Positions 41,792 through 44,594 of a stretch of DNA of 64,000 bases are shown piece after piece. The stretch is taken from positions 124,001-188,000 of the forward strand of contig NZ_AUCR01000001.1 of assembly GCF_000429865.1 (NCBI RefSeq), in the 5' to 3' direction. The notes under the pieces were generated by a model. That model searched no databases. It had not been told where the DNA came from and saw nothing but the letters and a program-made list of their open reading frames with translations. How positions within the stretch are numbered: position 1 is the first letter of the stretch; each line of letters begins with the position of its first letter. The position numbers were made by a program, and so were the translations under genes. This DNA is from Cucumibacter marinus DSM 18995 (GTDB taxonomy: Bacteria; Pseudomonadota; Alphaproteobacteria; Rhizobiales; Devosiaceae).

Positions 41792-42604
41792 ATGGTTGCG
41801 CCCGACCGGATCACCGCGCGCATTCTGGGCTGCGGATCGTCCGGCGGCGTGCCACGTATCGGCAATGACTGGGGTGATTGCGACCCCAACAATCCCAGGA
41901 ACCGCCGCAGGCGCTGTGCGCTGCTGATCACGGGCGAAAAGGATGGCGGCAAAACTCGCGTCCTGATCGACACCGGTTGCGATATCCGCGAACAATTGCT
42001 CGATGCCGGCGTGTCCGAGGTCGATGCCGTTTTCTACACCCATGAACATGCCGACCACACGCATGGGATCGACGATCTCCGCGTGCTGGCGCTCAACAGT
42101 CGCCGCCGTGTCGATGTCTATTATTCGCGCGCCACAGAAGTCCGCATGCTGGCGGCCTTCGGCTATTGCTTCGTGTCACCGCCCGAGAGCGACTATCCGC
42201 CGATCCTGAATGCGAACTATGTAGAGGACGGTGAAACCGTTTCGGTCGAAGGCGAGGGCGGGACACTCGAACTCACCGCCTTTACCCAGAGGCATGGCAA
42301 TATCGACTCGCTGGGATATCGAATCAAGAACCTCGCCTATTCTTGTGATATCAATGGCTTGCCATCCACTTCTATACCGACACTTGAGAACCTTGAGACT
42401 TGGATTGTCGATGCCTTGCGGCCCACGCCGCATGTCAGCCATTTCTCGCTGCCCGACGCCTTGCACTGGATCGACCGCGTCAATCCTCGGCGGGCCATCC
42501 TGACAAACATGCATATCGATATGGACTACGAAACCGTACTCCGAGACACGCCAGACCGTGTCGAACCGGCCTATGACGGTATGGAAATAGCGATCAAGGG
42601 CTAG
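41792..42604 (+). CDS. MBL-fold metal-dependent hydrolase (PhnP-like)
   Basis: A 270-aa metallo-beta-lactamase-fold hydrolase. It opens with ARILGCGSSGGVPRIGNDWG and carries the metal motif FYTHEHADHTHGIDDLR near residue 80. Downstream histidines lie in HVSHFSLPDALHW and ILTNMHIDMDYE. It resembles PhnP (cyclic phosphodiesterase) and RNase Z-like proteins and commonly follows tatD in alphaproteobacteria. The ATG at 41792 is chosen; homology starts there. Substrate not established. Confidence 0.92.
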   Translation: MVAPDRITARILGCGSSGGVPRIGNDWGDCDPNNPRNRRRRCALLITGEKDGGKTRVLIDTGCDIREQLLDAGVSEVDAVFYTHEHADHTHGIDDLRVLALNSRRRVDVYYSRATEVRMLAAFGYCFVSPPESDYPPILNANYVEDGETVSVEGEGGTLELTAFTQRHGNIDSLGYRIKNLAYSCDINGLPSTSIPTLENLETWIVDALRPTPHVSHFSLPDALHWIDRVNPRRAILTNMHIDMDYETVLRDTPDRVEPAYDGMEIAIKG

Positions 42605-42621
42605 GCCGGCCGGTGTGAAAA

Positions 42622-42653
42622 CGGGGGGCAGGGGCCCTTCCCGCTTTCTTTTG
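42622..42653 (+). terminator. Possible rho-independent terminator after the metG-tatD-MBL operon
   Basis: A bulged GC stem (CGGG and GGG pairing with CCC and CCCG around CAGGGG) is followed by the T-rich run CTTTCTTTT. It lies 18 bp past the MBL-gene stop. Two mismatched bases in the stem keep the call tentative. Confidence 0.35.
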
Positions 42654-42724
42654 CTGATCTGCATGCTCGACGCCCGACAAGCTTCATTTTATGAAAGCCT
42701 GAGATAAACGGCGCCGGGAACCAC

Positions 42725-43237
42725 ATGGATCTGCAGACCTTCAAAGCAACATTTCCGGATATCCGGGTTCATCTTGACTGGGCCGCGGTGCATGAGCGCG
42801 GCCACGAGATCCAAACCACGGTTCTGACTGATCCGGCTGAACTGGGTCAGGTCTATTCCGCATTCCAGGAAAGTCTTGGGCGCCTCGATCCACACTTCCT
42901 GCATTGGATCCTGACCCGGAAGATCACGCTCGCAGAGGCCATGCTGCGGTTTCATGAACTGCCAGACAATGTGCAATCAGACATTGAGCTCATGCGACAG
43001 GAATGCTGCGCAGCAGCAGAGCCGGTTCGCCTGGACGTGCCGGCATGCAGATTGCCGCGGAACGGGTTTTATCTGCTGGATGGCAATCATCGCTGCACTG
43101 CGGTGCTGATGAGTGGTCGCGCCTTTGAGGTGAAGCTGCACGTGATTCAGGGAGCGGAGCACGAGCCCATTTCGCCGGATATCGGCCGCTGCCGTGAGCG
43201 GCGGCTACCATCCCGCATAACCAAAAAAGTTCCATAA
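42725..43237 (+). CDS. Unrecognised 170-aa protein with ParB/sulfiredoxin-like DGNHR motif
   Basis: I do not recognise this family. No signal peptide or membrane segment is seen, so it is probably cytoplasmic. The segment NGFYLLDGNHRCTAVLMSG near residue 115 resembles the GxHR nucleotide-binding motif of the ParB/sulfiredoxin fold (as in DGNHRxxAA). The N-terminal half (ILTRKITLAEAMLRFHELP) is helical. Codon use appears less biased than in neighbours, and it lies alone between the tatD operon and the tautomerase. Its stop codon is inside a perfect 16-bp palindrome. Confidence 0.65.
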   Translation: MDLQTFKATFPDIRVHLDWAAVHERGHEIQTTVLTDPAELGQVYSAFQESLGRLDPHFLHWILTRKITLAEAMLRFHELPDNVQSDIELMRQECCAAAEPVRLDVPACRLPRNGFYLLDGNHRCTAVLMSGRAFEVKLHVIQGAEHEPISPDIGRCRERRLPSRITKKVP

Positions 43238-43248
43238 TATATATTATG
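43233..43248. promoter_or_regulatory. Perfect 16-bp AT-rich palindrome, operator candidate
   Basis: CATAATATATATTATG reads identically on both strands and includes the stop codon of the preceding gene. It is followed 15 bp later by a perfect AGGAGG (43264-43269). An AT-only palindrome this long is unusual in such GC-rich sequence and suits binding by a dimeric regulator near a promoter for downstream genes. Confidence 0.5.
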
Positions 43249-43446
43249 CGAATCCGTTATGTGAGGAGGTTGACGTGTTGGGCCGGCCTTTGAGACGGAT
43301 GCCAATCCCCTGCCGGACGCTCGCCGGTGCCAGCAAAGCCTGCAGACCGCGACATCCACATTCCACTCGACATCAACGATGCGTCGCGTCTCGATATGGT
43401 GACCGGCATCCGCCGGATTCGTTTCACCGCAACCGGAGCGCAGCGC

Positions 43447-43668
43447 ATGCCCTATGTGAACATTAAAATCACTCGTGAAGGCGGACCTACCGGCACCGGA
43501 CCGAGTGCCGAGCAGAAAGCAAGGTTGATCGAGGGCGTCACGGCTTTGCTCCAGGACGTGCTGGGCAAAGACCCGAAAACGACCGTTGTCGTGATCGATG
43601 AGGTTGAAATGGACAATTGGGGCATCGGCGGGCTGCCCGTCGATGATTTCCGGAAGCAGTCGAGCTAG
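43447..43668 (+). CDS. 4-oxalocrotonate tautomerase-like protein
   Basis: A 73-aa tautomerase-superfamily protein. After removal of the initiator methionine the catalytic Pro1 is exposed (MPYVNIKITREG). The C-terminal half LGKDPKTTVVVIDEVEMDNWGIGG is the usual one, shown here in full motif as VVVIDEVEMDNWGIGG. Such enzymes form hexamers and tautomerise enol/keto acids; many have unassigned substrates. The frame is open upstream to 43327, but only the ATG at 43447 gives Pro at position 2; GGAG sits 8 nt before it. An insertion (GPTGTGPS) makes it slightly longer than the 62-aa archetype. Confidence 0.9.
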   Translation: MPYVNIKITREGGPTGTGPSAEQKARLIEGVTALLQDVLGKDPKTTVVVIDEVEMDNWGIGGLPVDDFRKQSS

Positions 43669-43763
43669 AACTCTGTCAGGACGTGACGGCTGCGTGGCGT
43701 GACTTGCACCGATTTGCAGCATCGCATAGGACCGGAGGATCGCTACTCCACCGGGATTTACCC

Positions 43764-44594
43764 ATGCCGAGCACCATCCAACCGTCCCGCGATCTGTCGC
43801 GGCTCATCGAGATCATGGCGGCACTCAGGGACCCCGAAACCGGCTGTCCATGGGATCTCGAGCAGGATTTCGCGTCGATCCGGCACTACACGATCGAGGA
43901 AGCCTATGAAGTTGCCGACGCCATTGAGCGTGAGGACTACGCACATTTGCGCGAGGAGCTCGGTGATCTGCTGTTGCAGCCCATCTATCATGCGCAGATG
44001 GCCAAGGAAGATGGGCTGTTCGACATTGGCGACGTGATCTACGCGATTACCGAGAAACTGATCCGCCGCCACCCACATGTGTTCGGCGACGTCGAGCGCA
44101 CCGAAGCCTCAGGTGCCAAGGCCAATTGGGAAGCACAGAAGGACAAGGAGCGCGCTGCCAAGTCGGGCGGCAACGCCGCACCGCCTTCGGTGCTCGACGA
44201 TGTGCCCAACGCTCTGCCCGCCCTGACCCGTGCCGAGAAGATCGGCAAGCGCGTGGCCAAGGTCGGTTTCGACTGGAATTCGCCCGAAGGCGCCGCAGCC
44301 AAGGTGCGTGAGGAACTCGATGAAGTCGCCGCCGCAGCCGAAACCGGCGACCGCTCACATGTCGAAGAAGAGATCGGCGACATGCTGTTCTCCGCCGCCC
44401 AGCTCGCCCGCAAACACGGGGTCGACCCGGAGGCTGCGTTGCGCGACGCCAATCTCAAATTCGCGCGCCGTTTCCATCACGTGGAAGCACGCTGCCGGGA
44501 AGACGGTATCGACATCGGAACCGTCGGCATCAGCCAACTCGAAGCCTATTGGGGCGAAGTCCGGGCCGCCGACAAAGACGCGAAATCACGCTGA
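43764..44594 (+). CDS. mazG: Nucleoside triphosphate pyrophosphohydrolase MazG
   Basis: A 276-aa MazG with tandem all-alpha NTP-PPase domains. The first holds GCPWDLEQDFASIRHYTIEE and ADAIEREDYAHLREELGDLL near residues 25-70, each given here within limits. The second has VREELDEVAAA and HVEEEIGDMLFSAAQLARK near 180-215. Its EExxE and ExxD motifs bind Mg2+. It hydrolyses NTPs or dNTPs to monophosphates and pyrophosphate. It is convergent with hflX, with 1 bp between the stop codons. Confidence 0.95.
   Translation: MPSTIQPSRDLSRLIEIMAALRDPETGCPWDLEQDFASIRHYTIEEAYEVADAIEREDYAHLREELGDLLLQPIYHAQMAKEDGLFDIGDVIYAITEKLIRRHPHVFGDVERTEASGAKANWEAQKDKERAAKSGGNAAPPSVLDDVPNALPALTRAEKIGKRVAKVGFDWNSPEGAAAKVREELDEVAAAAETGDRSHVEEEIGDMLFSAAQLARKHGVDPEAALRDANLKFARRFHHVEARCREDGIDIGTVGISQLEAYWGEVRAADKDAKSR

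Follow-up and report, generated by a model that had tools for sequence, protein, structure and literature searches.

A 170-aa open reading frame (ORF) of Cucumibacter marinus DSM 18995 is a genuine orphan gene, apparently of recent acquisition, whose product belongs to a protein family that has no entry in the databases searched for known families. It was studied within a 64,000-nucleotide stretch of the genome (hereafter the window), and its translation contains the motif LLDGNHRCTAVLM. We read the product as a small protein that may depend on a nucleotide and perhaps takes part in surface-glycan metabolism. The initial annotation had described the ORF, a stop codon inside a palindrome, a downstream AGGAGG and a 63-codon frame opening with GTG, and the coordinates of all of these proved correct (Table 1).

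Table 1 Features of the locus in window coordinates, with the basis of each assignment
Feature	Position	Strand	Basis
ORF, 170 aa, subfamily A, without Pfam or NCBIfam entry	42725..43237	+	ORF calling, homologues, selection
Candidate helix resembling the ParB C-motif (Box I), residues about 84-98	42974..43018	+	hhalign register; inferred
D119-G-N-H-R123 loop, candidate phosphate motif (GxxR, Box II)	43079..43093	+	Family alignment and the definition in PMC12704722
Cys156-Arg157	43190..43195	+	Family alignment counted by eye
Perfect 16-bp palindrome CATAATATATATTATG, zero loop, single copy in genome	43233..43248	.	Genome search
AGGAGG and 63-codon GTG frame, judged non-coding	43264..43466	+	GC by position, Pfam, homologue search
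2-Hydroxymuconate (4-oxalocrotonate) tautomerase family protein, 73 aa, ATG-CCC (Pro1)	43447..43668	+	TIGR00013, PF01361

Homologues of the protein are present but sparse in the host's own bacterial family. A search with the single protein at E ≤0.01 matched 15 of 136 genomes, its own included, and a search with profile A1, an alignment of 19 members, gave 20 members (the window protein among them) in 14 of the 136 genomes and 3 of 16 genera. Since 19 homologues occur in this bacterial family, the ORF is beyond chance, and it is a real gene. One match of the single-protein search (G528, E 0.009, with an internal stop codon) was not recovered by the profile and was discarded as a member. Scans of the host's class (385 genomes) and order (397 genomes), own genome included, returned its own copy and four weak matches with E of 0.002-0.01, in scans that allowed at most nine and eight candidates per genome among the matches listed and that divergent members could escape. 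Three of the four were judged to be chance from the matched stretches. The fourth and best (G746, E 0.0024), in which the match surrounds a GAHR loop, reads by eye as a ParB domain and counts in favour of a relation to ParB.

In a tree of the 20 proteins, the window protein grouped with seven others as subfamily A (support 100/99), separate from twelve proteins of the sister subfamily B (100/99). The window protein has the longest end branch in this tree (1.63), and its exact placement within A is unsure. Sorted from the profile matches, both subfamilies are present in six genomes. Values of dN/dS were about 0.12-0.39 in six pairs of relatives, the lowest of them from a pair with dS near saturation, and by this measure purifying selection acts on the family in the pairs tested. 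The comparison covered relatives of the window gene, which has a best identity of 33% and no close orthologue in the genomes searched. Four residues (P106, D119, N121, and H122) are invariant in all 19 aligned members. Among the 18 others aligned, R123 is replaced by His in one and G120 by Phe or Cys in three, the loop of the L041 relative reading D-C-N-H-R. By eye, six of the seven other subfamily-A proteins have a Cys with Lys or Arg after it and stop no more than four residues further on. The window protein continues for 13 residues beyond Arg157, which is why its stop codon lies further downstream, in the palindrome. A small indel close to the 3′ end of the gene may account for these extra residues (43196-43237).

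Relatives were also found outside the host lineage, where two archaeal contigs and one phage contig encode proteins with a DGNHR loop. Over 26 columns the archaeal relatives give a strong alignment with the family, scoring 57.8. They are encoded on Pacearchaeota-labelled contigs (L002 3689-4345 and L003 1967-2644), are 218 and 225 aa long, share the stretch FYLLDGNHR, and have no Pfam match. The phage relative came from a profile scan of viral contigs with subfamily B; scans with the whole set or an A-led set found none. As a query, the phage protein matched only its own contig among the viral contigs, nothing in the phage records, and the PHROG profiles only at E 0.11, and an archaeal relative used as query had no match in the viral contigs. 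The phage contig (L147) also carries a weak ParB_N-like ORF, 1779-2498, under the Pfam cut-off.

The initial annotation had seen no recognisable family in this gene, and that assessment held: with E values up to 1 allowed, neither Pfam nor NCBIfam matched the window protein, and PHROG did so weakly. The PHROG match, to a phage family of unknown function (phrog_5931), covers window residues 117-143 at E 0.009; with E up to 1, five of the 19 members match it. The common part is the DGNHR loop with the residues that follow it, and the loop region alone is matched (profile positions 65-89 of 282). Several other matches of individual members were not accepted as family assignments, namely Pfam DUF7752 (three of 19 members, best E 0.069), FERM_N_2 (one member, E 0.0014), LPD28 (one member, E 0.018) and DUF6057 (one member, E 0.16), the NCBIfam matches (best E 0.083), and PHROG 20754 (one member, E 0.023). 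A defence system was likewise rejected, as the window protein has no PADLOC match and each model matched at most one of 19 members (best E 0.046). The PDB gave no match to the window protein alone, and profile searches there yielded no relevant relative, the only matches at E ≤10 being chains of MoaC (0.74) and BamB (1.8). Plasmid records, phage records, and viral contigs held no match to the window protein, so a phage or plasmid origin is not supported by sequence. A literature search on the word "DGNHR" gave no paper, and in a search on ParB-like nuclease domains with capsule and glycosyltransferase terms the ParB term was absent among the matches listed.

A resemblance to the ParB/Srx fold had been proposed in the initial annotation from a motif in the translation, with a profile search and structure prediction named as checks. 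The phosphate (P) motif of this fold is defined as GxxR in a 2025 survey (PMC12704722), and a GxxR motif (Box II) is present in the window protein as G120-N-H-R123. When the family was aligned by hhalign with 48 ParB_N domains of relatives, family columns 90-145 fell onto ParB 24-80, with GNHR on GERR. The score was 15.7. When the ParB columns were shuffled, 8 of 100 trials reached or exceeded it, as did 4 of 100 when the family columns were shuffled; reversal controls scored 15.8 (family reversed) and 14.9 (ParB reversed). Against 24 diverse ParB_N domains, a subset picked after the 48-domain result, the score was 19.1 and was reached by none of 200 column shuffles (best 18.0), again with GNHR on GxxR. 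The archaeal proteins scored low against ParB (13.3 and 14.8). The motif is there and the register is the expected one, but the alignment is weak, and its statistics are mixed and depend on the domain set (19.1 versus 15.7). PF02195, the ParB_N/ParB-CTPase profile, had no match in any of the 19 members at E up to 1. The structure prediction contributed no usable model (pLDDT 44 and 42); a helix spans residues 81-101 or 81-97 in these low-confidence AlphaFold models, and the hhalign match to ParB begins at residue 85. We consider it evenly balanced whether the protein is a divergent ParB/Srx-like nucleotide-binding protein.

If so, what the family shares with ParB_N would be the GxxR motif and, by profile alignment, the order helix-strand-strand-loop-helix, within the aligned columns only. 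The C-terminal half (about residues 80-145) would then form a divergent ParB/Srx-like nucleotide-binding core made up, in order, of a helix, two strands, the GNHR phosphate loop, a second helix, and a further strand, and the family-specific N-terminal half would probably set the partner or substrate. Canonical ParB differs in its other features: Pfam recognised no helix-turn-helix, other DNA-binding, or dimerisation domain in the 170-aa protein, and no parA was seen by eye in the ORFs around the gene. Because a DNA-binding domain was not recognised and D119, N121, and H122 are more conserved than G120 and R123, a nucleotide-dependent small-molecule enzyme in the manner of SerK or Srx, or an NTP-controlled switch, seems more likely than a DNA-partition protein.

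Two known proteins illustrate such a role. SerK, a free-serine kinase, is annotated as ParB yet works on a metabolite (PMC5120207). Its likeness to the 170-aa protein would be one of functional analogy. Structures of SerK or SbnI are present in the PDB, where searches with the family found no sequence match to either, and no serine-metabolism context was noted. Sulfiredoxin (Srx) is described as related to the ParB fold in PMC12704722. The resemblance in this case would be that of a single-domain protein of ParB fold. In Srx the phosphate loop holds a catalytic Cys, whereas the window loop D-G-N-H-R is without Cys.

The leading alternative is that the protein is a lineage-restricted orphan enzyme of unrelated fold, with a metal or catalytic site made up of Asp119, Asn121, and His122, and that the GxxR is coincidental. 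The lack of an accepted Pfam or NCBIfam match or a relevant PDB relative would fit this, as would the retention of D, N, and H while G and R vary and the mixed outcome of the hhalign controls. The coincidence is harder to reconcile with the correct register against the diverse ParB domains, where no shuffle did as well, and the archaeal and phage proteins have the same loop and flanks, so the family is not strictly lineage-restricted. We consider an unrelated fold less likely than not. Even were the ParB fold wrong, the proteins would still make up a family under selection that carries a motif resembling an active site and has no name in the databases.

The neighbours of some relatives point towards a role for the protein in surface-glycan or nucleotide-sugar metabolism, which we regard as a lead rather than an established link. 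Nineteen loci, covering the 20 members, were read, and glycan genes adjoin a member in three of them: in G049 and G558 the member has GT8, Wzy_C, and Caps_synth genes as neighbours, and one G544 member adjoins a GT25 gene. In G558 (L028 7851-8887) a B gene and an A gene stand in tandem with a 4-base overlap, within a surface-polysaccharide gene cluster. For the 135-aa DGNHR protein of the phage contig (L147 4734-5141), the stop codon and the start of a GDP-mannose 4,6-dehydratase gene overlap in the sequence ATGA. In the other 16 loci, including that of the window, inspection by eye recognised no gene for a glycosyltransferase or for nucleotide-sugar metabolism beside the member. Some of these adjoin murA, an envelope gene, and a DUF2948-like gene in a housekeeping setting, some lie near an O-succinylhomoserine sulfhydrylase-like gene, and others are elsewhere (all by eye).

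Taken whole, our preferred explanation of a ParB/Srx-like core in a nucleotide-dependent, glycan-linked protein of recent import falls a little short of an even chance. A broader version seems a long shot, namely that the family is a ParB/Srx branch missed by PF02195, with paralogous subfamilies A and B that stand in tandem in one genome, and that it serves as a nucleotide-dependent phosphotransferase or switch in the surface-glycan metabolism of bacteria and phages. If PF02195 does fail to see a family in which the phosphate motif is retained, this would suggest that surveys undercount the ParB fold. The 2025 survey was itself seeded with PF02195, and it reports no reliable rule predicting nucleotide specificity (PMC12704722). 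A link to glycan genes would in turn give a testable role apart from DNA segregation.

The stop codon of the ORF (TAA, 43235-43237) lies within the palindrome, which the initial annotation had proposed to look for elsewhere. Allowing up to two mismatches, the genome search found it in this one place only, so a repeated genome-wide operator was rejected; it may still act as a local site. The window contains three perfect palindromes of at least 16 bp, where 20 shuffles keeping local composition gave 1.3 on average. In its own 100-bp stretch, though, the palindrome is unusual, since shuffling of that stretch only gave one in 0.25% of 2000 trials. Overall, it looks ordinary for 64 kb and not clearly beyond chance. 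These data bear on the possibility that the protein is a ParB-like, NTP-controlled regulator or switch acting on DNA or on a partner protein, with the palindrome as a possible local operator. ParB-fold proteins are often switches (PMC12704722), the palindrome sits between the 170-aa gene and the tautomerase gene, and one promoter-like site on the minus strand (43265 to 43236) overlaps it, against an expectation of 0.7 for the region. Such a regulator is nevertheless improbable, given that Pfam finds no DNA-binding domain, that the palindrome is single-copy and of a length expected in the window, and that no promoter-like site was found on the plus strand of 42400-44000.

The locus itself looks like a site of recent acquisition. 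The gene order is tatD (as we take the first gene to be), an MBL-fold hydrolase gene, the 170-aa gene, the tautomerase gene, and mazG, with Pfam support for the MBL, tautomerase, and MazG assignments. Loci around the MBL gene were read in the host and 29 relatives, 1.5 kb to either side where the contig allows; of these loci, only that of the host contains the 170-aa gene or the tautomerase gene, and a mazG match lies downstream within the stretch in 15 of the 29 relatives. Several relatives carry other genes, or nothing recognisable, between the MBL gene and mazG (42605-43763 in the window), and because of the other genes found there the slot appears variable in general. The 170-aa and tautomerase genes thus share a variable slot between two conserved genes. 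GC3 of the 170-aa gene is 0.63 compared to 0.69-0.81 in 14 neighbours, and its codon score (own script) is the lowest of 17 genes compared; some other members of the family likewise have a lower GC3 than any of their neighbours. The initial annotation had called the locus newly acquired or decayed. Acquisition is supported by the lowest GC3 and codon score, the absence from this position in 29 of 29 relatives, and the long branch, and decay is not supported, as the gene is full length with its motif intact. The gene looks recently acquired rather than decayed, and it would have arrived recently to lie now beside the tautomerase gene. That the window copy is a functionless or degenerating import is improbable as well: the longest end branch, the lowest codon score, and the C-terminal tail past the usual end could be read that way, but no stop codon interrupts the frame along the full length of the family, the DGNHR motif is complete, and atypical codons are also compatible with a foreign donor.

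A terminator-like site (42622-42643) lies just 3′ of the MBL gene, so the 170-aa gene may be transcribed separately from it; five such sites occur in 42400-44000, against 1.1 expected. ARAGORN found no tRNA over the window, where no Rfam family reached its gathering score either.

Fifteen bases past the palindrome stands the AGGAGG (43264-43269), followed by the GTG (43275) of the 63-codon frame, which ends at 43466. An AGGAGG with a start codon 4-9 bases further on occurs 10 times in the window, counting both strands. The GC content of the frame at codon positions 1-3 is 0.66/0.62/0.55, and it has no Pfam match. Partial matches were found in 16 other genomes of the 136 (E 1.5e-4 to 0.01, 29-58% identity), six of them with internal stop codons, and we read these as probable chance matches of an Arg-rich frame. 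The frame was rejected as a gene on its non-coding-like GC, the lack of a Pfam match or convincing homologue, and its overlap with the start of the tautomerase gene; on this basis it looks non-coding. The initial annotation, which saw no recognisable product after the AGGAGG, was right about the GTG frame, but the tautomerase gene begins at an ATG (43447) in another frame.

The tautomerase is a separate downstream protein, distinct from the 170-aa protein. It scores 79.2 bits against TIGR00013 (cut-off 56.9) and 64.1 bits against PF01361 (cut-off 22), and its N-terminus reads MPYVNIK, with Pro1 following Met. Matches to it occur in 21 of 81 genomes searched, its own included, and 18 of the 23 outside its own genome begin at residue 34-40 of the longer frame, beside the ATG at 43447 (residue 41).
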